A stretch of DNA of 64,000 nt from Xiphophorus maculatus (lineage: Eukaryota; Chordata; Actinopteri; Cyprinodontiformes; Poeciliidae), in NCBI RefSeq assembly GCF_002775205.1, contig NC_036447.1, forward strand, positions 29,324,245 through 29,388,244. The letters run 5' to 3'. Position 1 is the first letter of the stretch. Every line of letters begins with the position of its first letter. Shown here one piece after another: positions 8,255-55,800 of this stretch. Both the position numbers and the translations under genes were made by a program. Below the pieces are notes generated by a model. It was not told where the DNA came from, did no database searches, and saw only the letters and a list, made by a program, of their open reading frames with translations.

Positions 8255-8710
8255 TAATTTAGTGCCTTGAAATTTGGCCTCTGTCTCTTTAAAAGCTTCT
8301 GCTCCTCCTGAAACTCCCCCTTTAGGAAGACATCGCAACATGGCTGCTCTATTAGCACTGGTAAAAACGTTGTTTTTACCAGTGTTGCTCTGAGAAGTAG
8401 CTCTTAAAAAGAGCTCAGTTCCACCAAATGCTGCTATTTGCTGCTGGCTAGTCTGAAGGAGCTGAGTAGCGGCTCTGAGAGGCAGAAGCTTGGAAAGCGC
8501 AGCTCAGAGGAGAAATTTCATCTCCAAGGCAGCATCAGGTTCCTCCAAGTGTTTTGCACACCTGAATGGTTGCCATAGAGATTAAAAGATTTCTCAAACA
8601 TGCATGAAAGAATCAAGGCAAAACTCCAGGTATGTGTTTGATGAAGGAATAACTTTATAACATGGTGTAAAGCTCAAAATAGTACATTTTAGATAACGCT
8701 GTCCCTTTAA
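8255..8710 (-). mobile_element. MITE family A copy (reverse)
   Basis: Reverse-oriented copy: it contains CATGCATGAAAGAATCAA and the TAGTCTGAAGGAGCTGAGT core and ends in CGCTGTCCCTTTAA, close to the inverse of the family terminus. The left side is degraded. Confidence 0.6.
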
Positions 8711-9973
8711 ATGATGCAGCATAAATGAGATAAAAATGGATAAGAATAATAAGCTAAATATTTTGTCTCAGATGAAATAGAGTAAAAGGTGACTGTGGCC
8801 ATGGGGAGTTAATATTTTTACTAGTTTCTATTATCTTCAGTTTCTTCTTCTAAAAATCATAAATCACCAAAATATTATTCAGTGATCCAATAATCATATG
8901 ACTTTAGCTCATGCTAAGCTATGCCAACTCTCTGTCTGCTCTCATTCATTTGCCTCAGTGTGCTCAGTGCTTGAAGTTGCCGTCATTGGAGGGAGTTTCA
9001 GTTTACTGTGTGATTCAGGTCATAACTGATTGCAGATGTAACAGGATTTCATGTTTTCGTAGAATATGTTTCATTTTTTATTTTCTTGCAAAATATATTT
9101 TCGCTAAAACACAAGAAACAATACAGCAGCAGCTTAAGCAAACCGGACAAACCTAAGCAAGAACTCAGCTGGTGATGTCATTGGTCCACTTTTTCTAACT
9201 CTAAATTGGCAACCAATAGGATCAGCCGCCTGCTGTTGGAGGGAAAGCGAGAGCTAAAACCTGGGAACCAGGACTGGAAGTTATTTTTGGTCTATTGTTG
9301 TCTGCGAATTGTCTTAGCCAGTTTAAAAATACATTTTAATCTTTGACTATTTGACCTGCTTGAACACAAAAGTACACAGAAGTAGGTTGGGATTTGCATC
9401 AGCAGTTATGAAAGCCCTAAATAATTTTTAGCAGTTTTGCTATCCAACAGTCAGACGTACCTTACTTCTGCGCTGTGACATGTGACAAATCATGTTTGTG
9501 ACATGTCAAAGCTGCAGAACGAAAACACATCAAGCCACCCTGCACTCTGATCTTGACACTAATTAACCACATCACCGTGTGTATCAGGAGTGCCATCAGC
9601 AGAGCGTTAAAAACACAAACATTCCAGGAACTCTGTGACCTCAGGTTTCCGCTGTGCTGCCACACAAAATCACTTTGTAGCTTCATGCATTTTTAATGAC
9701 ACGAGGTTTCTTCAAGCAGAGTACTGTGACACTCTGGGACTACTTTGCTTCGAGTTGTGATGGGGCCGCTGCCGTCTTAAGACTGCGAAGGTTTCCATGC
9801 ATCTCCATCACACAAGAGAGTAAAAAGTAGTCAGAAGGAAAAAAAATAAATAAATCAAACATGCTGAACATGTTTTAGATTCCTGCCACCAGGAAGTCCA
9901 GATGACTGAAATGTGAGTGGACCTCAACTGTTTCTGTGAGTTCTGCTGGTGTTGGGGCGGGTCAGGATCTCAC

Positions 9974-11290: not shown

Positions 11291-11593
11291 GCAGTGGTCC
11301 CGGGGTTGGGAGGCTTTCACTGTCCCAAAAATAAACAGATGTAAACATTTTCACAGTTTGACTTTTACAAATATTACTAGTTCTGAGTAAACCCAGGGTT
11401 CTCAAACTTCATGTTCAAACATCCAAACTGGATATCGAGGAAAAGGTCCAGAACAACTGGTGATGAGCAAATTACTTCTATTATTTTCTTACGACCCGCT
11501 GATCAAATGTATGTTTTTTAATGGTGAGAACTGCTAAGTTTTTGACCTTAAGCTGCTCTAATGTCTGACAGTGAACTGAAATGTAATTGATTA

Positions 11594-12155
11594 AAAGGGG
11601 AAGTATCATGTAAAATTGACTGAGCTTTACATCATATTATAATGATCAAAACAAAAACATATCTGGAGTGTTGGTTTGATTCTTTGACGCATGCTTGAGA
11701 AATCCTTTAAACTCCATGGCAACCGGTCAGCTGTTCAACATGACTGGGTAGCTCCGCCTACGAGGACAAAGCTCCTCCTTAGAGCTGCAGCTTCCAAGCT
11801 TCCCGATCACAGAGCAGCCCCCCCACTCAGATCCTTCAGCCTAGCCAACAGCAATTAGCAAACACCTGCTGTAACTGTGCATACTGAGCTCGTTATAAGT
11901 GTTGCTTCTCAGTGCAAAGCTGGTAAAATGTTGTTATAGGGCTAACTGAGGGCGTTGTGATGACTTCCTGAAAGCGGAGTTTCAGAAAGACTTTAAAAAA
12001 ACGGAGTACCAATTTCAAGGTTTTAAATTATGAAGTCAAATTTCTTATAAGTCATACTTCATATATGTAGCACTTTTATAACAACTGAAGTTAACAGTTA
12101 TGTGATTGTGTTATAAATTGGCACTAGGTGTCTGTGAAACATTGTTCCTTTAAGA
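11594..12155 (+). mobile_element. MITE family A copy (forward)
   Basis: Nearly full-length copy starting TTAAAAGGGGAAGTATCATG and ending in a TGTTCCTTTAA terminus. It contains the shared GAGCTGCAGCTTCCAAGCTT and TAGCAAACACCTGCTG segments. No transposase frame. Confidence 0.7.
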
Positions 12156-13357
12156 CATTTCTGTTTCACCTTGATCAACTTAATCACTTTTTATTCGCTT
12201 ACTGCAAATTCAGAGTAAAAACCACTTGGTGCTTCTGATTTCCTGAACTAAACCATTTCACCTCCATTGAGTCAGACTTTATTGTATCTTAAAGAGGTTT
12301 TAATTATGAGTACTCTGCGCCTAAAGCAAGTCTTGCGGAGTTTTTCTTTTTTTTTCAGTTTTATTTCTCAGTTTCTGTTCTTTTCTTGCAATTGTATTAT
12401 GATGTGTTTCTAAAAATACAAGATAATAATAATAATAATAATCACATGGCGCAAAACAGCATCTGGAACTGATGACTTTAAGACATACGAAGTAAAGAAA
12501 GTTAAAGTTTTTCTGGAATCATCTCATTTGTGCTAAAACTTTACTTTCCCATCTTTTGGCTCTTTTTTTTTTTTTTACAGAAGAAATTGAAACAAATTGT
12601 CTTTGTGACAGGCTGCTGATAATAAAGTACTAAAGATCTTTTTTTTATTATTATTATTTTAACTGGTTTTCTGTGTGTGTGTGTGTATTCTCAACATTAG
12701 TGACTCTCTTCAGACTTGCAACCTTTTTTCTGTCAGTGATCTCCAGGTCAAAAGCCCTCAGACCCTGCAGCGCATGCATACAGACACACGTCGATGTGCA
12801 GAGAGACGCAAAATTACAAAACCCCAGGAAGAGAAAAAGAGAAGTCTGTGTCGACTCACTGTGGTTTAATGCTAAAAAAGCAAACCCGTCAAAACCTGTG
12901 GTCACTGATCGCACAAACGCGCTTTGGTGCAAATCCTCTCACCACATCAGCAGCAGCTTGCAGGGCGACTGGACCTTAAACTTTAAAAGAACAAAAAAAA
13001 ACCCCAAACAAACTGATTTTACTTTTGCTTTAAGATTCTCAAAACTCCCAGCATTGAGTGAGAACTCAGCTTTGAGTTCAATCGTCCGTTTTAACACATC
13101 GTCACAGCGAGTCACAGCTCCCCATAAATAATTAAGAGTTAATACGATGCCACTTAAACTTGACACCTTTTGATGTCAGAGCTCTTCACACCCTTTGCAG
13201 CAGCGTCAGAGAAAGGAGGGGAAAAAGAGGAACGCAAGGCAGAGAGTGCAGCCGCTTTGTGATCGGCTGATTCTCCCCCGTGACACAGCAGGTAAGTGTT
13301 TGACTCTGATTAATGTGATGGTGGGACCTCACCTTTGTGCAGCGCTGCTGATTTCAG

Positions 13358-15043
13358 TGTCGTTACTGTGAACACACAGCCGGGGAGGAGGCGACTCCGG
13401 CTCCATGGCCTCCCTGTTCACCCAACTCGAGGTGTGGACCATCATGTTCTCCATCCTGGTTTTTGCGCTCTTCACACTTGCTGGGATGATCAGCGAGGAA
13501 TGTCCGCACACTGAAGGTGAGGCTGCAGGGAAACACGTTTTTTCCCCAAACCCCCCAAAATATCCATACCCTGGCAGATTTAGATTTAATCTAAATTCAA
13601 CCAAGAATTTAGTTTTTTTTTTATATATATAGGAAATTAGATAAGCAGGTTTAAAAAAATAAATATATAGCAATGTACAGCAGCAATATTGAAAAGAAAC
13701 GTTTTTAAATGTGTCATAATTTCCATATTGTTTAAATAAAAAAAAAAAATCAGATAGAGAAGAATTTATATGGAAACCTGTTTCTTGGCATCAAAGCAGC
13801 CAAACCCTTTTCATGTATCTATTTAATTTATCTTAGCTGATGAATTTTCAGGTCATTTTACATTACATTTAAATTACTTAAGAGAAATGTGAATATATGT
13901 GTTGTTGTGCAACATTTGGTTTGGTTTGACTATAAATTACTAATAAGTGCTGCAGGCCAATAAGAGAATCTACGACGTGTCTGTTTCAAATGGTTAATCT
14001 TTTTGGTCTTTCAGTCAGCAGCAAATGTAGATCAGATGTTCATGGTTTGACACTGGAGCTTATGCTACGTGCAGCACTAAAATGCTGATGCGTTTTATCG
14101 TTTTCTGATGGGATAGTTTGAAAAGTTGAAGATTTGCTGAAAAAAAAAAATCTAACATTTTGAGCTTAATCTCAGAAATGTTCAAGAAAAAATACGGTAA
14201 TTTCTAGGTCTGAAAAGTCTAGAAAAACCTCCAGAACTTTGAATTTGATCTCAAGAATTTATTAGAAAAACTTGGAAATTTCTGAGTTTGAAAACTTGAC
14301 AATTTCCCAGGAAAAAAAAAAATCGAGTTTGAGATTTAAAAAAATAAATTCTAGAAAAAACATGGACATTTGTGAGTACTTTTAAAATAGAATTTTCCAC
14401 AAAAAAAAAAAAAAGTTCTAGAAAATTGTTTTTGGTAGAATTTTCCTTCTGCCATTGTCTACAGTGGCCTAATAATCCGTCGTAGTGAAAAGTTTAGAAT
14501 AAATTACAGCCACAACACTGCGTCTCAATGCTGCAGCTGTACAGAATACAACACACCTGCTGCTGCCGCCGCTGCCCAATAAATGTGCATTTATTCACAT
14601 CTGTTGCAGTGAATAAATGCAATAAATTAGCATTTATTAGCATAAATGTTTCATTGCAGTGAGGGCAATCAAACATTTTTCTCTGCCCATGCCTCATTTA
14701 ATAAATGACAGAAAACAATTACAGCGTTAATTGTTTGACTGCACTCACAAACAACAGAACTGTGAATATGAATATATCCTTGCATTGTTTGAAACCCAGA
14801 TGCAAAATAACATTTAGTCAAACTATTTTAAAATGGATATAAATGAATTTTTATCTTAAAATCCTTAAATTTACTGCGACATAATATATATATATATATA
14901 TATATTTTTTAATTGTTTACATTTTTGATTTTAATTTTTTTGACTTTTCAAGGAGAGCAAACAAGATCAAAAAGGCCTTTTTTCTTATTATTATTTTTGC
15001 AGAAACTACTGATAGATCCCAGAGTCAGGAGATGTCAGTGTGA
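13358..15043 (+). CDS. smim31-like micropeptide gene (upstream tandem copy), two coding exons
   Basis: Predicted 50-residue single-pass membrane protein. The ATG at 13405 sits in a CCATGGC context, 47 nt after an acceptor (ATTTCAG at 13351-13357). Coding exon 1 (13405-13516) gives MASLFTQLEVWTIMFSILVF and then ALFTLAG, a hydrophobic helix at about residues 11-28, and ends in phase 1 at GTGAGG. The best exon 2 starts at 15003 after TTTTTGCAG and reads ETTDRSQSQEMSV to the stop at 15041-15043. An AATAAA at 15259-15264 could end the transcript. Length, phase and the LE..., VF.LFTLA pattern match the downstream copy at 17176. SMIM31 has no settled molecular function. Exon 1 is well supported and exon 2 less so; exon 1 might instead splice to 17359. 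Confidence 0.6.
13405..13516 (+). CDS. smim31-like copy 1, coding exon 1
   Basis: 112 coding nt (37 codons plus one base), ending CACACTGAAG before GTGAGG. It encodes the whole membrane helix. Length and phase are identical to 17176-17287. Confidence 0.7.
15003..15043 (+). CDS. smim31-like copy 1, candidate last coding exon
   Basis: Acceptor TTATTTTTGCAG, then AAACTACTGATAG. Joined in phase 1 it makes GAA and continues for 12 codons to TGA. The AA after the junction equals the AA at the start of the paralogous exon 17359. It is short and poorly conserved in sequence, so it is tentative. Confidence 0.45.
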
Positions 15044-15149
15044 CTCATCTGCTAATGCTCAGCTCGTGAGAAAAACTCAGCCTGTTCCTGGTGTGTGGCC
15101 GTGAATCCTTATCAGTTTATAAAAGCGGGCCTGCAGGCCGACCTATGAA

Positions 15150-15178
15150 CGTGTGTGTGTGCGTGTGTGTGTGTGTGC
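15150..15178 (+). repeat. GT microsatellite
   Basis: A (GT)n tract with one C interruption, immediately before the candidate acceptor at 15189. Confidence 0.85.
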
Positions 15179-15189
15179 TTTGTTTGCAG

Positions 15190-15399
15190 TCCCAGTGTAA
15201 CCTGCTTCTTCCAGGATGAGGCACAAAGGAGTGGCCAAATTGTTCAACTAAAAAATGCAATAAAGAGACACCTGCTGAAACAAAGTGGCTCACAACAGCA
15301 TCACCTGGCCGCTCGCCCTGCAGGATGTCCAGAGACAGCACCGGGAGATTCCTCTGTGAACTTTGAACCTGGAAAACAGACCGTGTGTCTCTCCCATCG
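15190..15399 (+). other. Candidate unassigned exon between the two smim31-like genes
   Basis: A good acceptor (TTTGCAG ending at 15189) and a strong donor (GGTAAGTCC from 15400) bound 210 nt. In phase 1 from exon 13405-13516 it meets a stop after three codons, so if used it would be a 3' noncoding exon of copy 1 or a 5' noncoding exon of copy 2. It contains an AATAAA at 15259. No conserved protein was recognised. Confidence 0.3.
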
Positions 15400-16478
15400 G
15401 TAAGTCCAACAACAACAAACTAACGATTCTTATCTATTTGTGAAAAAACTGGATATGTCTTCGGCTTACGGAGGTTGTAAAACAAATTCATGTCTGTAGC
15501 AAAGGGTGTGCTGGTCGGACCGGTTTGCCGTCATGTTGGACTCGTTCACGTTGGACATTAAAGAGCCGAACCTGTTTGCAAACAGGCTTTAACCTGATTA
15601 TACCTAACAGTTTGAATGAGTTCAGGGATCAAATATTTATGCAGCAGGTACAGTTCCAGTGGCCTCCTTTTTCTTGAAGTTGACTTTGGCTTTTTGTTAA
15701 ATGTTTGAAGCGTGTCACTTGGTCAACTTCCCAGTTCACTACAGACTTCGAAGCAGAGGCGTTGAACTGAAGGTTTAGGCTGCTGAGAAGTTCTGACCTT
15801 GAAATGTGTCACTTAGTGCAGAAAATCTGCTAAAAGTTGACACAAAATGTGTTTTCCTTTTATTAAAGCAGATTATTCCTTCAGTTCTGGCTCGACTCTA
15901 ACACCACAACATTATTCTGTTACTGCACTTTGTCTAACTTTACTACAATGAGGTAATGAGATGTAAATACGCTGTAAATGTTTATGGATAGATGAAGGTT
16001 TTAATGAGCAAGAGAGGTTTTAAAATCTTGCTTTTCAGACCAGGAGTGACTATTTCTGTCAAACAGTGCACACAATACACCGTGTTTCTGAAATTAGACC
16101 TCGATGAACTACAGAGAATTCTTTCAGGCCCTCTGGTGGAGGAAAGTGAGTAGTGCAGTTTGAAAAAGCACCATGTCACGCACAGTAATTGCCAAATGTT
16201 TAACCAAAACTTCATTTTCTCATAGTTCATATTGTTTATTCAAATTAACGTGAAGAGCATCTTTGTAAAAATGTTATTAAAATATCTGATTTATTACAAT
16301 ATGTAATTTTCAAGTCAAGTTTTTTAGTATAAAACATTTTAGCTACATGGCAGTTCAAAGTTCAATACATGATAAAAGCATAAAGATTAACTGCAACCAT
16401 CACCTCATTTCAGCTTCTATCATATCATAAGCACAGCTGGAACTCTATTAGAGTCCAGATAAAATAACTCAATCTGAT

Positions 16479-17037
16479 TTAAAGGGGCATTCTGTAAAAT
16501 CGACTTTTTTAAGCATTACATCATGTTATATTATTCCCACAACAAAAACATACCTGGAGTGTTGCCCTGGTTCTTCCATGCATGTTTGAGAAACCCTTTA
16601 ATCTCCCATGGCAACCACTCAAAACACCTGGTTGGACTTAGATCTGCCTTCCAGACGCAGCTCCTCCTCAGAGCTGCAGTTTCCAAGCTTCCGTTTCACA
16701 GAGCAGCTCTCCCCCGAGACTCACTCAGCTCCTTCAGACTAGCCACCAGCAATTAGCAGATACCTGGTGGAAGTACACATTTGCTGAGCTCATTGCAGGA
16801 GCTACATCTCAGTACAAAGCTGTTAAAAACGTTGCTAAAGGGTTAATAGAGGATCCATGTTGTGATAACTTCCTGATAGTGGAGTTTCAGAAAGAGCGGG
16901 AGTTTTTTTTTAAAGAGACCGAGACCCAATTTACAGGCATTCATTTATGAATTCAATTTTATTTTAACAGTTAGTTCATTGTGCTATAAAATAGCACCAT
17001 GTGTCTGATGAATACTTAATACCGCCCCCTTAAAAGT
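16479..17037 (+). mobile_element. MITE family A copy (forward)
   Basis: Starts TTTAAAGGGGCATTCTGTAA and ends ATACCGCCCCCTTAAAA, giving inverted termini. It lies just upstream of smim31 exon 17164-17287, so the promoter or 5' intron of smim31 contains it. Confidence 0.75.
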
Positions 17038-17163
17038 AGTAAAATCTTCCTGGTTCTCTGAGCAACACTTTATATTATTATTATATCACTTAATATTATT
17101 ATTATTATTAATTCTGTATCTTATTGTGAGCTTTGATTCGGTTTCACCTCATGCTTTGTTTAG

Positions 17164-17447
17164 GCAGCTGTGCAGATGGAAGTGCCATTCTCTGGCTTTG
17201 AGATCACCTTCATCATCTTAGCCTTCGTCATCTTCTCCCTGTTCAGTCTGGCTTCGGTCTGCATCCAGAAAGAGGAAGGCCCAACAGGTAAGCATCGATA
17301 AATACCGCCACAACAAATGTAAACCTGTCTAATGCAAGTTATGACTACCCTCTTTCAGAAGATGCTGCATATGAAGACAAGAAATTACAACAACTAGTGA
17401 AGAAGAAGCAGAGAGAGATCACCAAACAGGCTGGACAGAAGGCTTAA
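17164..17447 (+). CDS. smim31: smim31 (small integral membrane protein), two coding exons
   Basis: Predicted 66-residue single-pass membrane micropeptide. The ATG is at 17176, 12 nt after an acceptor (TTTGTTTAG ending at 17163). Exon 17176-17287 reads MEVPFSGFEITFIILAFVIF then SLFSLASV; the helix covers about residues 10-29. After a 71-nt intron, exon 17359-17447 gives an acidic then Lys/Gln-rich cytosol-type tail (KKLQQLVKKKQREITKQAG) and a stop at 17445-17447. The ME-P-F/Y...LAFVIFSLF.LAS pattern and a charged tail match remembered human SMIM31, which lies between MARCH1 and APELA as here. Function is unknown in the family. The 3'UTR probably runs into a MITE fragment, and AATAAA at 17873-17878 is a possible end. 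Confidence 0.75.
17176..17287 (+). CDS. smim31: smim31 coding exon 1
   Basis: 112 nt, 37 codons plus G, donor GTAAGC at 17288. Encodes the short N-terminus, the transmembrane helix and the start of the tail. Confidence 0.78.
17359..17447 (+). CDS. smim31: smim31 coding exon 2
   Basis: Acceptor CTCTTTCAG ends at 17358. The split codon GAA is followed by 28 sense codons and TAA. Rich in Lys, Gln and Glu, consistent with the charged tail of SMIM31. Confidence 0.75.
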
Positions 17448-17551
17448 AGCTGGAGCTGAACTGGGACTGGAGATCATACTTCCTGCTTCTCTGTGTTTTA
17501 TGGTAAAGTTAGCAATTTGTCTTTGCCCAATGAACTATAAACTCCCCTCAT

Positions 17552-17780
17552 TAAAGGGGCAGTGTTATGTAAAATCAACTTCTTGGAGATTTGCATCATG
17601 TTATTTTCTAATCAAGAACATACCTGGAGCCTTGATTCGTTCATGGATGTTTGAGAAAACCTTTAATCTCCCGTGGCAACCACTGAGCTGGGCAACATGT
17701 CGGTGTGGACCTAGCAACGCCTCCTTGTAGTTGAAGTTTCCAAGGTTCTGCCTCACCCACTCAGCTCCTTCAGACTAGTG
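17552..17780 (+). mobile_element. MITE family A fragment (5' half)
   Basis: Begins TTAAAGGGGCAGTGTTATGT and breaks off near the CCTTCAGACTAGT core. It starts about 105 bp after the smim31 stop codon, so it probably lies in the transcribed 3' region. Confidence 0.7.
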
Positions 17781-19082
17781 GCCCAATGGACAATGCAAGG
17801 CTAAAGGAACACAAATGACCGCAACACAGAAGAAGAATTGTTTATGGAGCCTAATTAAAGTGAATAATGACCAATAAAGAGAACAGATGGGGAAAAAAAT
17901 GGAAATGTATTCATTTTGAGAAGGCAAAAATGCACCCAAAATTATATATAGCTCAATTTATCAGCAATGGAGGGAATAGCAGTTGAAAGCATTTGTCAAA
18001 GAAAATTTTAAATTTGTGAAATAAATCTTCAGAGTACTTGCTACGCAATTAAGAAAATCCAAAATAATAAAATTTCCAAAAATTCTAAATTATAAATGTT
18101 TGACTGTTTTGTACAGTCTATGATTTTAGTTCAAAAAGTCTGTTCACAACTTTGTTTCAGAATGATTTGTGGTTTTATTTGTTTTCAACGTTCCTGCTGG
18201 TTCCCTGTATTTTTTAAAGTTCACATGTGTTTTCCCAGGACAACAGGGAATAAAGAAGAACAGCGTGGCAGTGGTTCAGTTAGGTTTGGCTCAATTTTCA
18301 TTTGAAGGTAGATTTTTAAAAATGCCTGACCCTTAAATGGTCAGAACAATAAACAACACTTCAAATCCAATCTCTAATTTAAATGAACTGACTGGTAAAC
18401 ACTAATAAAATAAAACACACATTTTAAAATAACTAAGCAACCAGTTAAGAAATCATGAGGCTTTCAATGCAGTATTCGTTAGGAAAACTCATTCATTTAA
18501 CTGCGCAGCTACGTTAAAAAATATGCTACTTCCGGTTAGCATATTTATCACAAAATGAGATCAAAAATAAAAACTGAAACCCAAAATCAATTAGGCAAAA
18601 TAGCCGAATAGAAGAGCACATCTTTTCACATTAATCAGTGTGCACAATGTCAAGGTCCAGTGTAAATATAATGGTTAAATTGATCCACTATTATTGAAAT
18701 CTGAAAACAAACCTGTTCAAAACGGAGTGACAGCAGCGCCGCAAGAAAATATTTCAAACAGCTAACCTAAAATAATTAACTAATTAATTAATAACATAAA
18801 TGGGGACGATACAAAGCTAACCGCTTAGTGAAATGTAAAGTTATATGTGGCAATGGATATGAAGAGTAATCAATGTAATGCCAAATCCAGCAGCCACAGC
18901 AGAAGCCAGACGCCAAAGATGCAAACGGCCCTTTATCAGATAACTAAATGTTCTTCCGACAAGCAGTGACAGCCAATCCGAGAAGACATTTCATGTGACA
19001 TTTGGCGGTTTCTTTTTTTTATTTTTTATTTTTTTAAATGTATTTCAGTAATATGGGTTACATACGCATATGTGCAAAAGTG

Positions 19083-21179: not shown

Positions 21180-21746
21180 TTAAAAGGGTCAGTGTTATGT
21201 AAAATAGACTCTTTTTTGAGGATTTTATCACGTTATAATGGTATTCCATCATCAAAAACGTACCTGGAGTGTTGCTTTGATCATTTCATCCGTGTTTGAG
21301 AAATCCTTTAATTTCCCATGGCAACCATTCAGCTGCGCAAAATGCCTGGGTGGACCTAGCCCCGCCTACGAGAACAAAGTTCCACAGAGCTGCAGTTTTC
21401 CAAGCTTTTTACTCCCCCACTCAGCTCCTTTAGACTAGCCATTAGTAATTAGCAAACACCTGCTGGAGCTATGTATAATGAGCTCATTATAGGAGCTACT
21501 TCTTGTTACGTTGTTAAAGGGTTAATGCAGGAGAGACGCTGTGATGACTTCCTCAAGGAGGAGTTTCAGAAAGAGCAGGAGATTTTAAAGAGACAGAGGC
21601 CCAATTTCCAGGCATTAAATTATCAAGTCATATTTCTTTTAAGTCATATTTGATATATGGAGCATTTTTGGAGGTAACATAGTAACTCAATTATGCTATA
21701 AAATGCCACTATGTGCCTGGAAATCAAATGATACTGTCTCTTTACA
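21180..21746 (+). mobile_element. MITE family A copy (forward)
   Basis: Near complete: starts TTTTAAAAGGGTCAGTGTTA and ends GATACTGTCTCTTTA. Shares the core segments with the other A copies. Confidence 0.7.
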
Positions 21747-26133: not shown

Positions 26134-26209
26134 ATGAAGGTTTTCAACTTGCTGTACTTGTTGGTGCTGCTCACAGCGTTGGTGGCTCCCGTGTTTTCAG
26201 TCAGACCAG
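26134..26209 (+). CDS. apela: apela coding exon 1 (signal peptide)
   Basis: 25 codons plus one base. ATG in GCCATGA context. Encodes the signal peptide and the first mature residues (VRP). Donor GTAAGA. Confidence 0.95.
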
Positions 26210-28730
26210 GTAAGACTCTACACAGCGACCCCTGACCTCACCTAACCCATACCTCACCCTTAAACCTAACCCTAAACTACCCGGCTCACTGTAACATTTA
26301 CTCAATCACTTTGCTAGACCCTCAAAAGCAAACAGTTTGGTTTACCTTAAGTTTAAAGATGTCAAATTTGAAAATGATGTAAGTGTAAAAACTGATTTGA
26401 GAAAACAAATGATTAATAAAGATTGTGCCTTTAGCTAAACATTACTAAACAAAAGCTAAACAAAATGTTGAAACCGCAGCACAGCAACTCAAATAGCAGT
26501 TTTAAGCTTAAAGACCTTAACCAGTGAAAAATACCTAGTTGAATTTTATAATAATATCAATAATAATAATAATACAGTTTCTGAACATATAATTAATAAA
26601 ACATACCGATAGACGTTTAATTTTCTGCCAAAAATTATTATTCCATTTCTGTTAGCGGGAGGCTAAAGTTAGCATGGACTTGGCTGTTCAATAACGGGCT
26701 ACTGCGCCGTTAGCTGGTCCAAACCAAATTAGTTTAAATTCTGTTCCACACTTGGTCAGTCTGCTCTGTAACTTTTGATTTTTTAAAATAGTTTGCGATC
26801 AGTGAAATCTTGAAATCTTTGTTTTTTCTTTTTGAAAAAAACAAAAAGCAGTTTTGTTCTTTTGGAACCCCCCCAAATTAAGACTGTTTTCAGCCTGTTA
26901 ATCCATCTCAGAGGGTCACATATGTTCTACAGGTTTAACAAACTATTTTTGCGAACGCACTAAAAAATAAAATAGGAATTTCTGAATTAATTTGTTTCTG
27001 CGGTAAATTTCAAGGCCACCAGCTCTGGTTGGGCAGTTTAGGGGGTGAGGTGGCGGTCGGAGGTTCATTTGATGATGATGATGATGATGGTGGCGGAAGG
27101 GTGGAGATGGCCGCCGGCGGTCGCACAGCAGCCACGAGGGCGACCCGGTCTGCAGCCTCCGGCGCTGCGGCGGGCTTTTGTTAATCGCCATGCAGATTGT
27201 GCAGCAGGGCCAGGTGTGGAGGCCGGGCTTCAGGCGCTTCTTCTGGAGGGAGGCAGCTGCCGCTGGTGGAGGTGGGGGTCATAAAGTCATCCAGCAGTGG
27301 ACCTCCTTCTTCCTGGGCTCGGCCTCCAGCGGCCTCTGAACCACGGGCCCAGAGAGGATTTATTGGGGACGTTCAGAAATAATCACGTGTTTGGTCTCTT
27401 TCTCTCGCGCGCTGCCCAGCTGCTGCTAAACGACTCGGCGCAGTAAAACAGTCGCAAGTGTTCACGAGGGATCGAGTTTATGGCGTAGTTCCATTTATAA
27501 CCTGACCACAGGAAATCGATAAGTATCCTTGGACATTTGTAAAGAAGTTGTTCCATTAGTTTGGTTGTGTTGATGCAAATTTGTAAGTTTTATTTGACTG
27601 GATTTAGGGCATTTTTGTCGCCCTATAGCATTTTAGTTCCACTGAAAACCATTTAATTTTATTTGTTTAAATTAAAGTAATTTTAGTTTCCATGAAAAAT
27701 CTTGCATTTTGTTAAAATTCCTTCCAGACAGTGGGGTAATATTTGACATAAAGGTTAAGCACTGAGGCATAATTTTGTTTATTTAATTTTTTTATTTTTT
27801 TTTAAAGGGTAAAATGACGTCATTAGCAAAAATGTTCATGCAATTTAAGTACCGGTAAAAGCAACTTTGCAAGAATAATTACAATTAAAACTCACACATT
27901 TTCAACTTCCAAGTTGTTAGAGTAAAGGAACAGGTGAAAAAAAAAATTATTTACAAGAATGTTTGCAGAAAAGAAATAAATAAACAATCAATGTTGCTGC
28001 CAATTCTTGACATACATATGTTCAGAAAATAATCAAACGGATGTTGGGGAAAAACTACTTTGCTTGCTAAAACTGACTTTTAGGGAATAAAAATGGCGAG
28101 GACAGAAATTCAAAATGGCGTTCATTTAACCCTGTTAAGAGACGGGGTCCATTGGGCCCCACAAGCTTTTTATCCTGTGCGCGGTGAGGTGGGGTTAAAC
28201 TTACCCAGTATGCACGTCTGCAATTTTTTATTATTATTTTTGTGTGTGTGTGGTTTTGGGAACTGACGGTCTGATGGAACACACCATAGCACTTGGGAAG
28301 CGCTTCTATAAATATGCTACGTATAGAGTAGCATATGGTGCTATTTATAGAAATTTATTATATTTCTAAAACAAAATTTCATAACCAGGGTAGAAAAGAG
28401 CCGTGCTAAGACTGCTGGAGGGTTAAAATAAAATTGTACTTATAATATTTATAATGAATTTTAAAAGAACTTTTCTTTGCGTCCTTAAAACAGTGGGGTG
28501 TAAAAAAAAAATCATGAAACCCTACTGGACAGCCTCCAGATTATTTGCAGGATTAAATGTCTGAACAGCCATATCCAGCGGCTAACGCTCGTCCATGTCT
28601 CTTGTGTTGGTGTATTTTAAATACAATCTTGTCTGTTTCAGACTTTCTGAACCTGAGGAGAAAATACCACAGACACCATTGTCCACACAGACGCTGCATG
28701 CCTCTTCACTCCAGAGTCCCGTTCCCCTGA
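26134..28730 (+). CDS. apela: apela (ELABELA/Toddler) apelin-receptor ligand precursor
   Basis: A 54-residue secreted peptide precursor in two coding exons (26134-26209 and 28642-28730, phase 1 join G|AC). Residues 1-22 (MKVFNLLYLLVLLTALVAPV plus FS) form a signal peptide. The predicted mature peptide, residues 23-54, contains DFLNLRRKYHRHHC, then PHRRC and the family's invariant tail MPLHSRVPFP. Cys39 and Cys44 are at the same positions as in human. APELA activates the apelin receptor (APJ) and guides mesendoderm migration and heart development in fish. Length equals the human 54 and is shorter than remembered zebrafish 58, because the segment after the signal peptide is reduced to VRP. The donor is GTAAGA at 26210 and the acceptor TTTCAG ends at 28641. 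Identification is close to certain. Confidence 0.96.
26210..28641 (+). other. apela intron 1
   Basis: A 2.4-kb intron. It contains a CpG- and GC-rich stretch at about 27030-27430 with a (GAT)n run near 27071, and a TTAA-flanked piggyBac-like MITE at 28126-28426. No other exon was seen. Confidence 0.8.
28126..28426. mobile_element. piggyBac-like MITE with internal palindrome
   Basis: TTAACCCTGTTAAGAGAC at the left and GCTAAGACTGCTGGAGGGTTAA at the right are imperfect inverted termini with TTAA target sites. Inside, TCTATAAATA...TGCTAC (from 28302) pairs with GTAGCA...TATTTATAGA (to about 28351). No transposase. Confidence 0.6.
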
Positions 28731-31220: not shown

Positions 31221-34200
31221 CTGAGACACAGGCAGGACATGCAGAGATTCAGTTATCAAAACACCTGCCTGGTTTGTTTTTTTCTTTCTTTGGACTGTAG
31301 CTGCTTTTCTACTCATTTTTCTACTCATAAATGATTTATTTTATGATGGAGCATAACATGATTTAAATCTACATCCACCACCTTCATCCTTCAGTCGATC
31401 TGTAAACCAGGCTTAAGTTTGGTGGGAGTTAGCAGATGCTAAGAACACTTTTTTTCTGTACACACATCTGTCAACTTTAGCATTTTCTTGTTTCCAACTA
31501 AGAACATGGAATTTAGTTGTGTTTGTATGAACTTTTAAATTTAAAGGGGCAGTATTATGTATTTTCTAGGCACATAGAATAATTTTATAGCACAATCAAC
31601 TGTGCTACCTGCAGTTGCTCTACAAAATGCTGAATATATCAAATATAATTTGAAATAAATTTGACTTGGCAATTTAAAGGCTTGAAATTGGGCCTCTGCC
31701 TCTTTAAGAAACTCCTGCTCCTTCTGGAACTCCACCTTCAGGAAGGCATCACAACATGGCTCCTCTATTAACCCTTTAACAAAGTTTTAACTGGTGTTTC
31801 ACTGAGAAGCAGCTCCTATGAAGAGCTCAGCAGATGTGCAGCTTCACCAGGTGTTTGCTAATTGCTGCCGGCTAGTCTGAAGGAGCTGAGTGAGTCGGAA
31901 GCTCAGGAGATTTCAAACTGCAGCTCAGAGGAGGAGCTTTGTCCTCAAAGGCGGAGCTAGGTCCACCTAGGCATTTTGCACAGCTGAATTGTTGCCATGG
32001 GAGATTAAAAGGTTTCTCAAACATGCATGAAAGAATCAAAGCAACACTCCAGGAATGATTTATTTTATGATGGAGCATAACATGATTTAAATCTAAAAAA
32101 AGTTCATTTTACATAACACTGGCCCTGTAAATCTTTGCCATGTTTTATTTGTTATAAAAGTATAAAAGATTTGATGACAAAACAACAGGCCACTAAACCT
32201 AAACCAATGTGACTGTAATGAATGACCGATCCAGTGGATTCCCTCTCTGTGGGGGTCAGCAGGTCAGAAGATGCAATAAATGCTTGTGCAACATATGACA
32301 GTAAAGACGCATCTGGAGGTCGCATTTCTCCTACTGGTCACAGAAATATCATATTTAAGCTCCTTTTGCATAATTCATCTTTTACATTCCCATGTTAAAA
32401 CTTAAGCTTATTTGTATGAATGAATGTATGAATGAAACTGTGATAGATTAAACTAACACTGATGGAGTTGGATTTTCTTACAGGACACAGATTCTCATTA
32501 AGATTTAAAATCCAAATCTTCTTAAGGGAAACTGCAGATGTTCATTTTCTGATCTGAGTGAATGCTTTGGGTTGTTGTCATGGTGAAAGAGGAAGCTTTA
32601 GTGTCAACATGGCACTGCCTCATTCTGAGGAGTTAGCTTATCCTGATCTATCTCTCTCTTTTAAAAAAAAAGGTTTTATTGGCTGTTGTGGCCTTTATGT
32701 GATAGTGAATTGACATAAAAGTGGGTAATGAGAGAAGTGGGAAGACATGTGGCAGAGGTCACCAGTCCGGGAATCGAACCTGCGACAGCTGCATCAAGGC
32801 CTAAGGCCTCCATATGTGGGTTATACTTAACCCCACCGCCACCACAGAACCCCGTCCCCGATGGATCCATCTCTGGAGTTATGCTGCTGCAGGCTAAAGT
32901 GGCTGTAGGACAAACTGACCACTTTTCCCTCAACCCGCTACTTTCTTCTCCTACAACTCTGCAACTTGCATTATTTTCTGTTATTTCAGCTGCTGTCTTT
33001 ATATTAATAAAATGACCCGACCTTGTGGTGTGAGTGTGTTTTGACTTGTCTCATTCATAGAAAGTGCTCCTCGGTCAGTTCTTTTGCTCAGTCTTCTCAA
33101 ACTCCAACCAATTTCAGTTTTAGTTTTTTTTTTGTTATTTAGTTACAACAAAAGCTAAAGCTGAACTTGCTGAATGAAAATCCCCCTCATTTAAATGACC
33201 TGATTTTGTGGTGGGGGTGGGCGTGTGTGTGTGTGTGTGCGTGTGTGTGTGTGTGTGTGTGGTGTACCTGAAGCCGGTCTCGGTCGGCAGGCTTGTGACG
33301 CTGTAGGTGTGTGAATGCTCCTCTTGGCTCACGTCTGGTGCAGCTCGCTGTCTGTTGAACTGCATTACTTTGACTATATAAAAAAACACACACAGCGACA
33401 CATTTAGAGGCTTCAGGTTGTAATCTGAGTAAATGAAGAACATTAATAGCTGTGCTTCCATTGACAACAGAATTGAGAAAACAGAATTCACAAAAGTGCC
33501 ATGGAAACAGTCAGATGATGATGCTACTGGGGAAAAGATGAAGAAGACGACAGGAAGTGGCAGAAGGATGACTGTGTGGAAAGTTTCTTAACTTATTCAC
33601 GTGTGATTTTAATTTTAATCATTGCTTATTTAATAGAAACACCGCAAATGCGTTTCTTTCGACATTAGCGGAACCTAGACAAAGATTTGCACACATTTGT
33701 GATGGAAAGGCGGCTAATGAGAGGCTTCCAGCTGGGTGTGAAACGCCTCCCGTTTGTCTCTTTACTGTTTTTCCATTTTCCAGTCTCACGTGAACCGTTC
33801 CATCCTACGCTCAGGAGTCGTCGTCCTCCGCTCCCAGCCTCCAATTCTGACACCCTGAGAGTCCACCTTAACACTCGCGGCATGGCTCGCGGCGAGGTGC
33901 GGGAACAACCGCAGCACAAACACACGGCGGCGTTGCCGGGAACCGAGATAAGAACACGAAGAGGTGTGGATGATGTGAGGAAGGCCGGCGGGATAAGACT
34001 CCAGAGTGACTAGCCAGAGGAAACAGAACCCTATCTTTACCTGAACAGTTGAGCTTCAGAGCACCCACACAATATAAAGAAATACTCCACATTTCTGCAT
34101 AATGAGGTCCTAAATCTATGTGTGTGTGTGAAGCTGCAGTAAGCAAGACGAGACACCAGCTGAAACCTGTCCATGCTTAGAGAGCATTCCCAACTCCTGC

Positions 34201-37200
34201 CAGTAGGAATGAGAGACTAGTTGTCCCTACACTACTGCCGTTTTGAGATCATTTTCACTTTATTTAGAGGTAAAGGAATAATAATGCTAGAACACATTCT
34301 CAAAGATCACAAAAACCTTAAATTCTAATGAACATTTCATACTTTAACTGGGAGACATTTTAAATATTCAAAATAAACTTTTCAGCAAGATATTGGAGTT
34401 TGTCTTAAGTCAATAATTCCTTAATGTTGATGAAAAAGTACCAGCTCCACTGGCAGATTATTTTACTTGTAAAATGGGAAAAATAAGAATTATTTTCAGC
34501 TCTAAAGTAATTCGAGCTTACCATTTGGAGGTGGGAGCATCACATTGTCCCTTCATGCTTCATAGAAATGGAGAATAAATAGTGAAATTTACTGAAACAG
34601 TCCTGATAAGAATTTGAATGGGTGTGTTTTTTTAAAGTAAGACGACTCCAAAGACACGCAGCCAAGGAACGTCTCGGCTGGTTTAGGAGAAAGAAAACCA
34701 AGCCGCTAAACTGTCCCAGTCAATCCTAAAGGAAAAAGAATGACTGGTGAGGAATTGTGCAGAAGAAGATGTGGAGAAAGAACGTCCTAAAACCTCTCTG
34801 AGCAGCGCGCCGTAGTTCCTCCAGACCGGCGACCGTGGAGCTGAGACGATGAAATAAGGCTTTCTACAAAGCGTATAATTCATCTCAGTAAGCGCGTTCT
34901 CTGTGCAGTTTCATTCATAACACACTGTATGTGTGTGTTAACTGGGTTGGCAGTGACATCTGGTGTGGAAATCATCTCAACAGAAACCGATGACATGTTC
35001 AGTACTGATGTTCCGCGCAGTAAATCAGAGCTAACCACCGTCTGTAGCTGTGTTTCCATCGACCATATGGGTTTGACACCTTGAAAATAAATTTGCTTAA
35101 TGGAAACACAGCAATTTTAAAAAAAACTTATTTTTCGATAAAAACGAAGGATTATTGTTGTTGATTTTTGTGATTGAATCGAAATTGGCTTATTATGCAA
35201 AGCAAAACTGCAATGGAATTTTTTTTTTTTGCATCACACGAATCACATGATCCACAACCAGATGTTGCCACTGGCAAAAACCACAAAGAAGAAGACAACA
35301 GGAAGTGGTTGGAGGATTATGGTACGGAAGGTTTTTAAATGACTGACTGTGTGAACAAACTTTATTAACATGTAATTTAAATTGTGAACGTGTTTTTTTT
35401 TACATTAGCAGAATATCGACAATGTTTTGTGTGCCTTTGTAATGGAAATCCAATTAGTGACTCATAATAAACGTCACAACTGTTTCAATTATTATGGGAG
35501 CTAAACTTCACACCTCCTAGTATCAATCCTGAGCTTTCATTAAAGCTTTCTGCAGCTCGTAGTTGTTGGACATTATTAAACAGAGAACCTTCACAGCGTT
35601 TCAATGCCGCCGCCTTTCCTCTCCTCCAAAATCCAAACAGCCGATTATTTAAAAACTGTGTATTTTTCACAGCTTTCATTTCTACACTAATGCCTTTAGT
35701 AGACTAACAATGCAGTCTATTTATAACATAAACACTGTCACAGTAGATTTAAACCCAGAAAGGCAAACGCAGAGTGACAGGCGGCTAGCTGCAGCAGGCG
35801 GTGTGGAGGAGGTGCCACATTTCACGCCTTCCTGTCAAGAGACTCTCAGGTGGTGAGACGCAGTCAGACTGCTCTCATCTGAAGCCTCTGTCACCCACCT
35901 GGAAGTGCACATTTCCAGGTGATAACAGTGAAGCTGCAGAAGTGCTAACAGCTAACGGCACCACACGAGTTTAAACAGGAGACAAAGGAGTCGGAGTACT
36001 TCCAGTGCTGCTGGGCGGAAATTAACGGGAATCACAGGAGCGTTGTGGTGGAGGAGTGTGGGGTCTGGGATTTTGTTACGGAGAGAATCCCAGTGTGGCC
36101 GTCTGCTTCCAGGTTTGACACGCTGGACATTCAGACGTGGTTTTCTCTCTGAGCCTCTGAGGATATTGAATCAGTTCAGAGTCTAAACTGCCTAAAGTCT
36201 TTGCTTGTTTTCCGATTAATCCACTATTCTCATTTGGAAACCTCAGAAAACCTGCAGATATAATAGATCAACAACAGGTTGGCTGTAACTGAAACGTTAA
36301 AGGAGACATATGATGTAAAATGGACTTTTTGGAGATTTGTATTATGTTATCCCCTCATCAAAACCATACCTGGACTTTTGCTTTGATTCTTTCATGCATG
36401 TTTGAGAAATCTTGTATTTTCCAGCCACGCAGAGCCATTTTATAGCACAATCAAGTAGTTATGAAAGTGCTATACGTATCAAATATGACTTAAAAAAAAT
36501 GCCTTGAAATTGGGCCTCTGTCACTATTAAACTTCCTGTTCTGTCTGAAACTCCACCTCCAGGAAGTCATCACAACATGGCTCCTCTATTGACCCTTTAG
36601 CCAAGTTTTTACCAGCGTCTCATTGGGAAGTAACTCCCAATGAAACACTGGGATCTGCTCGGAAGATGAACAGTTCCACCAGGTGTTTGCTAACTCAGAG
36701 CTGCAGTTTCAGAGCTTTTGCCTCACAGAGCAGCCCTCCCCGTCAACTCCTTCGCTACTCAGCTCCTTCAGACTAGCCAGCAGCAATTAGCAAACACCTG
36801 GTGGAACTGGACGTCTGCTGAGCTCATTATTTGAGCTACTTCTGAGTGAAACGCTGGTAAAAATGTTGTTAAAGGGTTAATAGAGGAGCCATGTTAAGAT
36901 GACTTCCTGAAGGCTTAGTTTTTAAAGAGACAGAGGTCCAATTTCAAGGTGTTACATTACAAAGTCAAATTTCTTTTAAAGTAATATTTAATGTACAGAA
37001 CATTTTTATAACAACTGAGTTTAAAATAGTTACTTGATTGTACCATAAAATGATACTCCGTGTCTAGAAAACACACAATACTGCCCCCTTAAAAAATTAC
37101 CAGAATGTCTTTATGCCAAGAAGAAATGCATCAACTATGTAGGGTTATGCTGCAGGTATCAGCATCCTTGCTGGTGCCATGCGCCCTGCGGGGCTCACAT

Positions 37201-45372: not shown

Positions 45373-45504
<132 letters not shown>

Positions 45505-45675
45505 CCCAATTAATTACAACATAGTGGCAGGTTGCCCTCAGTCAGAGGACGTGAAAGCCAACATGAAAGCAAGTGAAAACTTATTTTACTGCATTATTAT
45601 CCTTTTTCACTTCTCTACAAAACTACTGTAAAGTCACCACTTTAGGTCCAATAAAAAGAAGGAAAGTAGACAAAA

Positions 45676-52800: not shown

Positions 52801-55800
52801 GTTTTCCTGTAGCGGGTCCAGAAGGGAAGCAAAGTCCTCAGCTGTGTCTCCATTTAGCTGCACCAACCCGTCCAGCTGACAGGAAACAGAACAGCAGTTA
52901 GCATTTACACAGTACATATTTGATGCAAGGTTTTAAATAAGCAGCTAATTTTATGCTAACATTATATTAAAAAAAACATGTTTGTGTTTTAAATATCTGA
53001 AATCTTTCCTGTTTTATCCAGTTTTCATTCCACGTTGTTTTTTACTTTTAAGCAGTTATGATGCACAGTAGCAAAACCTGAAACTGCTGCCGCACAAGTT
53101 ACTCAACAGGTTGTTGAGTGAGTGAGTTAGCTGATGCCTCCAGCCTCGCTTAGCTCATTGTGAGAGGCGGAGCAGCTAAAGCCTTTCTTCTGCCTACATC
53201 TCCCAGATGTATACTGTTATTGATTTAGTGTCCAGCCCTGCTGTAAATCCATCTAAACAAATATTTTCTTGAAATGTTCTATCATTTAGTTGATCTGGAT
53301 GTTTGGTGGGACTTGGTGAAAAATAAAATCTTATCAAAATCAGAAAATTGATGGTCTTCAATCAAACTCCAACGATGCTGAAATCGTTCTCCTAACCAAT
53401 GTGTTTGCTTTTCTACTGAATTGTGCAGAATCAGTCTCACGTTTAGGGTGAAAAAGGTATTAAAGTAATTTACTAGCATCTCATTTTTATGTCAAAAACA
53501 TATTGTCACAGTCCTGAGATTCACAGGATGAGACGACAGAAACGCAGCGCTCCTACCTGTTGGACCTCCACATGTTTGTGTTCAGGAGGAGAACACCTGG
53601 GCGGGCAGTAGGGCTTGGCCGCCAGCAGTGGGAGCGGTCTGGAAGGCGCAAGGGAGGGGAGTTTGTGTTTGGGTTGAGGTGCAGCAGCAGGTTCAGTGGG
53701 GGACTGAGGGGCTTCTGGGTCTGGCTGATTCTTATGCTCATCATGAGGGTCTGTCAGGTGGGAGGGGGGCTCAGGAAGCTGTTCCGACTGGAACTTCTCA
53801 CTGTGTGAGTTTGTGTCTTTGAGTTGGAGGGCAACTGGTGCAGAAGAGCTGCTGAGGTTCACACCAGGCTGATGTTTTTCATGACTGTCCTCTGTCTGTC
53901 CACAGCGTTCCTGTTCGGTGAGACCGTCTGTGTCCTGCTGGTTTGGACGCTCCAGCCTCTCTGAGTCATCGGCGCCTGACGTCTGGCTGTGCTCCTGCTC
54001 TGTCTGGTTCAGGAACTGGTTAGGTTTGTTAGTGCTTCTGGGCAGCTTCAGGCTGTCCAGTGTTGCATCACTGATGGTGAAGCGGAGGGCGTAGCGCTGT
54101 AAAACCAAAGCTGCCTCCTCTGGAGTCGCTGCTTGTCTGTACGCTTCACACAGCTCAGCTTCCCTGCGTTCTCTGAGAAACAGGAACCAAGACAATTTAA
54201 AGGGGAAGTATTATGTGTTTTCCAAGCACATACTGTCATTTTATAGCACAATCATGTTCCTACTTCTTCAGTTGTTATAAAAATGCTGTATATATAATAA
54301 GACTTACAAAGTTTTTGTAATTGTAATTTAAAGCCTTGAAACTAGGTCCCTGTCTCTTTAAGAAACTCCTACTCTTTCTGAGACTCCCCCTTCAGGAAGT
54401 CATCACAACATGGCTCCTCTTTAACAACATTTTTACCAGCTTTGCCCTCAGAAGCAGTTCCTATAATAAGCTGAGCAGATGCTCAGTTCCACCAGCTGTT
54501 TGCTAATTGCTGCTGGCTAGTCTGAAGGAGCTGAATGGGGGAGTATTGCTTGGAAACTGCAGCTCTGAAGAGGAGCTTCATCCTCAAAGGTGGTGCTATA
54601 TCCGCACAGGCATTTTGCACAATTGAATGGTTACCATGGAGATTAAAGAATTTCTCAAATATACATGAATGAATCAAGGCAACACTCCAGCAATGTTTTT
54701 GATGAGTGACTAAGATTAGAACATGAAGTGAAGCTTAAAGAATTTGATTTTACAGAATACTGCCCCTGGGTGGGTAGAGTAAGAAGTACAGTGTAGTAAA
54801 GCTACTCTTCAATGTAATTTTTTTTTCAAAATGTTACTCAAGTAAATGTAACTACCGGTAGTTGCTGCCTAACTCTGGCTGTAAATGTGCTACTCTCATG
54901 TTTAAAGTAAAACTATCTTACACTTACTTCTCCTCCACAATCTCCTTGTAAGTCTTAATGCTCTTCCTCTTATTGCCATCCACTCCGTTCCCCTTCATCC
55001 TTTTTTCCATCCTCTTCCTCTCCTCCTCCTTTTTAATCAGCTCCTGTGACGTGCTGCGGCGGCGGTTCTTCCAGCGGGCCAGGTCCTGAGACAAAAGTTC
55101 ACAGCGTCCGTCAGTTTCATTCTGCTGAACGCTACCTGACGCACGCCGTTTGAGGACAAGAAGAGCCTCACATCCTGCCACTGGTCCTCCTCTTCCACGA
55201 AAGCGTTGCACTGCTGGTGCATGCGTTCGAATCGTGATGGGCTCAGCGAAGGGAAGTGTCCCGCCTCGTCCTCGTTGGCCATGTCTCCCATACTCGCACT
55301 CCTGTAAATGGAAAAAACCCAAAAAAACACTGAGGATTTTGTCTGACAATAATCACATGTGTTGGTTTTTCTTGTGTTGCACACAGTTTGGAGCGATGTG
55401 TAGCGTGCAATGATAAACAATATGCAGTCCATACTTAAAAAGCAGCAGGCAAAACAAAAAATTGTACTGAACAACAGAAACAACTGGCAAAAAACCCTCA
55501 AAATCCCAGCAAGACATATTTGAAGGAATTTACTGATTTAAACCTAATAATCAGAATCACCTTCAGGTTTATAAATGTATAAAACACTGAGTTACAAAAA
55601 TTTTTTTTTGGAAGTTGTCTATGTTTTTTCAACTGAATTAGGACTATTTTCCACAGCTGAATCTGGAAATGACATCTATTTTTCTCAATCAGGTCAGGAT
55701 TTTATTCTAATGTCATTTAGAGAAATCTGATACTCTGACTGAATTGATGACATTTTTGTGACATTATCAATTCACTTCTGTTAATATTTCTCATTCCAAA

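Follow-up and report, generated by a model that had tools for sequence, protein, structure and literature searches.

Paired first coding exons of ORF1 and SMIM31

The window analysed here is the 64-kb stretch C5:29324245-29388244 of the Xiphophorus maculatus genome (contig NC_036447.1; the genome comprises 704 Mb in 101 contigs). It contains two short open reading frames (ORFs) in tandem on the plus strand. The downstream frame, ORF2, belongs to the gene for the micropeptide SMIM31 (17176-17447), which begins 3.8 kb beyond the upstream frame, ORF1. The order of genes at the locus is: MARCH-type RING gene, ORF1, SMIM31, and apela.

The first coding exon of ORF1 (13405-13516, plus strand; MASLFTQLEVWTIMFSILVFALFTLAGMISEECPHTE) comprises 112 nt, that is, 37 codons and one nucleotide, and ends in phase 1. 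It reads ATG...GAAG followed by GTGAGG, and its donor, AAG|GTGAGG, belongs to the top 0.2% of the 3515 GT dinucleotides in the window. The encoded peptide has a short acidic N-terminus with E9, one hydrophobic helix, and an acidic end. The corresponding exon of SMIM31 spans 17164-17287 on the same strand; its coding part (17176-17287; MEVPFSGFEITFIILAFVIFSLFSLASVCIQKEEGPT) is also 112 nt long, ends in phase 1, and specifies a peptide in which a short acidic N-terminus is followed by a single hydrophobic helix. This exon reads ATG...ACAG followed by GTAAGC, with the donor CAG|GTAAGC in the top 0.11% of GTs. An earlier note on this DNA had described a tandem pair at 13405 and 17176 with identical exon architecture. 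Its coordinates were exact, and the length and phase of the first coding exon are indeed common to both genes, but the identity does not extend to the second coding exons (41 nt in the ORF1 model versus 89 nt in SMIM31).

The two first exons were compared by ungapped, in-register BLOSUM62 scoring over 28 aa. ORF1 and ORF2 reach a score of 45, with 9 identical and 18 positive positions. The next-best match was 13 among the 520 stop-free, ATG-started windows of 28 aa in six frames, and the best other score was -2 among the 34 of these that also have a GT at +112. When any first codon was allowed (30,286 stop-free windows), the best unrelated score was 30, for a hydrophobic window at 63367 that has no ATG. 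In permutations of ORF1, with the N-terminus and the helix shuffled as separate segments, a score of 45 was reached by 6 of 100,000 sequences. Comparison of ORF1 with a provisional human SMIM31 sequence, which served for all human comparisons here, gave a score of 54 with 11/28 identical residues; this was reached by 2 of 200,000 permutations, the sum of the ORF2 and human scores by 4 of 200,000, and the local score at any offset by 1 of 20,000. BLASTP of the pair alone returned E = 6e-5 with 11/32 identical residues. The pattern F-[ST]-x-[LF]-E...[LV]-[VI]-F-small-L-F-[ST]-L-A-small is common to both helices. Judged by these scores, ORF1 is most likely a distant relative of SMIM31 rather than a coincidence; the likeness to SMIM31 suggested earlier holds for ORF2, and for ORF1 it goes beyond chance but is distant.

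At the DNA level, the first exons agree at 55 of 112 nt, and no direct repeat of at least 16 nt connects them. A blastn search with 13150-15399 revealed no other site in the window that matches the ORF1 exon. Since no DNA repeat joins the exons, the duplication is, on this evidence, old, and the open frame of ORF1 has probably been maintained by selection. Identity is highest at second codon positions (23/37), as compared to 15/37 and 16/37 at first and third positions, and the third position looks saturated. Despite this divergence, ORF1 retains its start and open frame, the exon length and phase, and the helix pattern, which points indirectly to selection, as an untranslated copy would not be expected to keep them. 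Also, G or C occupies the third position (GC3) in 23 of 33 synonymous codons of ORF1, close to the 25 of 36 in SMIM31; 16/33 would be expected at 50% GC (p about 0.01), and the excess is far greater over the expectation at intron GC.

Tail and transcript structure of ORF1

We consider it moderately probable that ORF1 (13405-15043) is a gene of its own, an old paralog in tandem with SMIM31. Its product would be a single-pass membrane micropeptide of 50 aa, specified by the 112-nt phase-1 exon together with a short terminal exon at 15003. Expression, the 15003 tail, membrane topology, and function of ORF1 are all inferred.

The candidate second coding exon (15003-15043, plus strand) reads E(split)TTDRSQSQEMSV up to the stop TGA at 15041-15043 and is preceded by the acceptor TTATTATTATTTTTGCAG|A. 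Joining 13516 to 15003 would add 41 nt of coding sequence and a 13-aa tail. All acceptor scores were calculated with an approximate weight matrix; the pyrimidine-rich acceptor at 15003 scores 2.7, which is within the top 5.9% of AGs in the window. The GC content drops from 58% in 13380-13516 to 32% in 13517-13660 and climbs from 20.3% to 48.6% at 15003, and the best change point within 14700-15399 is at 14998. The drop past 13516 together with the rise at 15003 favours an exon starting at 15003, and the junction 13516/15003 is plausible on these grounds. After residue 28, the peptide with this tail would contain 1 K/R and 6 D/E, versus 9 K/R and 7 D/E in SMIM31. The lysine-rich tail of SMIM31 is thus absent from this model, whereas ORF1 joined to 17359 would carry the tail of ORF2.

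A 5' non-coding exon of ORF1 is predicted at 13200-13291 (plus strand; the start is approximate), with a donor CAG|GTAAGT in the top 0.03% of the 3515 GTs and a GC content of 52.8% in 13150-13291. Further downstream, the plus strand displays a candidate TATA box of the SMIM31 gene at 15118-15123 (TATAAA; TATAAAAGCGGG), which is one of six TATAAA in 12600-17600, and a candidate poly(A) signal for an ORF1 transcript at 15259-15264 (AATAAA), where 13000-18000 holds 15 AATAAA/ATTAAA; both are weak signals. If used, AATAAA at 15259 and TATAAAAG at 15118 would divide the locus into two units. A 5' non-coding exon of SMIM31 is predicted at 15148-15399 (plus strand), with the start set by the TATA box and the donor TCG|GTAAGT in the top 1.0% of GTs.

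The segment 15003-15399 may be the end of the ORF1 transcript, the start of the SMIM31 transcript, or an exon within a bicistronic message. If the last applies, a read-through transcript would comprise exons 13380-13516, 15003-15399, 17164-17287, and 17359 onward, and ORF1 would act as a paralogous upstream ORF, possibly setting SMIM31 dosage by nonsense-mediated decay. Such an arrangement agrees with the acceptor and the usable donor TCG|GTAAGT that flank 15003-15399, with its GC content of 49.9% throughout, and with the known case of paralogous single-pass small ORFs on one transcript, Sloth1/Sloth2 of Drosophila (PMC9681215). The ORF1 stop, however, would lie 356 nt before the next junction, which would make the message an expected decay target, and five ATGs occur between this stop and 15399. 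Because of these two features a bicistronic message is less likely; the AATAAA and TATA motifs also suit two units, and we regard this as the least probable of the explanations weighed here.

Several observations weigh against a separate paralog with its own tail. The acceptor at 15003 ranks only 21st among the 256 downstream AGs, 20 of which score higher. The acceptor at 17359, which opens the second exon of SMIM31, is phase-compatible with ORF1 and scores 3.4 versus 2.7. The best GC change point shifts to 15017 when 14000-15399 is considered, and the change point near the ORF1 donor, at 13577, lies some 60 nt beyond 13516. The 13-codon tail is without codon bias (GC3 5/11), the acceptor at 13380 is a poor one, falling only within the top 29% of AGs, and poly(A) and TATA motifs are frequent by chance. 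The GC3 excess of the first exon becomes marginal (p 0.044) at 55% GC, a value similar to that of the exon with its 5' flank (53%). Finally, identity between ORF1 and ORF2 is as low as 9 of 37 residues, and a genome-wide search with either ORF omits the other exon at E <= 10. The similarity is therefore weak at that search size, and the case for relatedness of ORF1 leans on position and register besides the letters.

In another reading, the locus holds a single SMIM31 gene whose first coding exon exists in two alternative forms. Namely, 13405-13516 would be transcribed from an upstream promoter and spliced to 17359, giving an isoform of 66 aa in which N-terminus and helix are changed while the lysine-rich tail is retained. 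The two donors, both phase 1, are compatible with either acceptor; the joined sequence MASLF...HTE-EDAAYEDKKLQQLVKKKQREITKQAGQKA is open to the SMIM31 stop, and duplication of the first exon alone would suffice. This reading, however, demands a 3.8 kb intron that skips both 15003 and 17164, the latter with an acceptor score of 4.1, while the GC step and the pyrimidine-rich acceptor indicate an exon at 15003. We consider it unlikely, although it is the strongest competitor of a separate paralog.

The low identity and the omission of ORF1 from the genome-wide SMIM31 search would also suit an untranslated ORF1, whether the relic of a former copy or a chance hydrophobic frame that happens to be followed by a GT at the proper position, as would the tail devoid of coding signal and the score of 30 attained elsewhere by a hydrophobic window without ATG. 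This is hard to reconcile with the gap of 45 versus 13 among ATG-started windows and with the permutation counts; moreover, at 55/112 nt identity an unselected copy would be unlikely to keep frame, start, length, phase, and helix pattern. Chance or decay is improbable, slightly more so than alternative first exons. Of the reading in the earlier note, a diverged upstream exon of the SMIM31 family is supported; a separate gene with its own 13-aa tail is no more than moderately probable, given the rank of its acceptor and the fit of 17359.

The SMIM31 gene and its neighbourhood

The second coding exon of SMIM31 (17359-17447, plus strand; 89 nt) encodes the lysine-rich tail and ends in the stop TAA at 17445-17447; its acceptor is in the top 4.0% of AGs. 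Joining 17287 to 17359 yields a product of 66 aa, the first 28 residues of which are 18/28 identical to the provisional human SMIM31 sequence. On account of its sequence, its two coding exons, and its place beside apela, ORF2 is assigned as the fish SMIM31 ortholog, in line with the earlier note. Human SMIM31 lies between MARCHF1 and APELA, and the neighbourhood MARCHF1/SMIM31/APELA is found again here. In an hmmscan search against Pfam, ORF1 had no match, and ORF2 matched just two unrelated families, both below threshold. The human coding sequence is reported (PMC6886504) to specify 71 aa in two coding exons and to be 'conserved to coelacanth'. By sequence and place, the SMIM31 of this window extends that conservation.

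The exons of a MARCH1/8-type membrane RING-CH ligase are located at genome C5:29314269-29320412 on the minus strand, with the RING exon 17 kb upstream of ORF1. This exon matches PF12906 (RINGv) with E 9.7e-15, and its closest solved chain is 2d8s (E 8.8e-31); two other fragments of the MARCH-type gene matched no Pfam family above the cut-off. On the other side, apela (Toddler/ELABELA), the syntenic landmark, lies 9 kb downstream of SMIM31. It is represented on the plus strand by a signal-peptide exon at 26134-26212, with an approximate splice end, and by a mature-peptide exon at 28644-28730 (FLNLRRKYHRHHCPHRRCMPLHSRVPFP, then stop), with an approximate start. The peptide, assembled with a guessed exon join, matches PF22050 with E 3.8e-24.

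No third tandem copy was found in the 64-kb window by the same in-register scoring, and none stands out in the 40 kb upstream, where the best ATG-started window by summed score has 24 against SMIM31 and 14 against ORF1 and has no GT at +112. Weak genome matches on C6, C12, C18, and C14 (E 0.2-3.4) were considered as further paralogs and rejected as chance by eye; a further match on C21 (E 1.7) contains one stop. No relatives were confirmed in public viral and genome contig collections, which carries little weight as these are not collections of fish genomes. In the SMIM31 literature searched, with most subscription papers and all genome annotation outside its scope, no further copy of SMIM31 came to light.

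A repeat element of about 450 bp is dispersed over at least 8 places in the 64 kb, some of them partial, with 73-85% identity between copies: 16470-16960, 31685-32133, 11585-11990, 8263-8712, 54315-54758, 21195-21635, 36297-36910, and 17551-17684. One copy lies in the predicted leader intron of SMIM31 and one about 100 nt beyond its stop. The element is probably a non-autonomous transposon. Elsewhere in the window, an ORF at 55037-55537 on the minus strand matches DUF4757 (PF15949) with E 2e-11, and we take it, together with neighbouring ORFs, to be part of a LIMCH1/LMO7-type gene. Also, a long (TA)n microsatellite at about 45380-45505 was seen as repeated Y-I translations.

Possible role of ORF1 and known counterparts

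Until recently, annotations listed SMIM31 as a long non-coding RNA, and separate roles are credited to the RNA (EPR) and the peptide (EPRp). EPRp is located at epithelial cell junctions of mouse mammary cells, and ZO-1, cingulin, paracingulin, cortactin, and myosin-II are recovered with it by co-precipitation; most effects of EPR on gene expression are assigned to the RNA itself (PMC6488594; see also PMC10250242). Epithelial expression and the junctional location of SMIM31 are known from mammals only.

If ORF1 is a separate paralog, its product would insert a single helix with the SMIM31-type pattern in the membrane, as SMIM31 (EPRp) does, and might share the membrane partner of SMIM31 or pair with SMIM31 via the helix. 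Since its predicted tail is short and acidic rather than lysine-rich, such sharing or pairing would take place at the level of the helix, without the basic segment, and ORF1 would then not simply duplicate SMIM31 but be its partner or competitor. A bolder proposal, which we put forward only tentatively and hold to be rather doubtful, is that fish SMIM31 is half of an ancient tandem pair, in which the unannotated ORF1 has shed the basic tail and, through helix pairing, tunes SMIM31 at the junctions of epithelia; tetrapods would have lost ORF1 if this order is ancestral. A paralog with another tail, encoded next to SMIM31, would offer a natural comparison of the roles of helix and tail. It would also imply that micropeptide pairs can outlast similarity at the DNA level, where routine annotation likely misses them.

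The closest known system is SMIM31 itself (human LINC01207/SMIM31; mouse Smim31). ORF1 likewise has its start, E9, and the helix end F-small-LF-[ST]-LA-small, and its first coding exon equals that of fish SMIM31 in length (112 nt) and phase (1). It differs in its N-terminal sequence, with 9/28 residues identical to the fish peptide and 11/28 to the provisional human sequence, and in the short acidic tail if 15003 is used. The nearest precedent for tandem micropeptide paralogs is the Sloth1/Sloth2 pair of Drosophila (PMC9681215). Like the pair in this window, these are adjacent, distantly similar (27% in Sloth), single-pass micropeptides; they are non-redundant and act in one complex. In contrast, Sloth1 and Sloth2 are encoded by a single transcript, their ORFs only 5 nt apart, and act in mitochondria, whereas the pair described here more likely forms separate units and its known member, SMIM31, is junctional.

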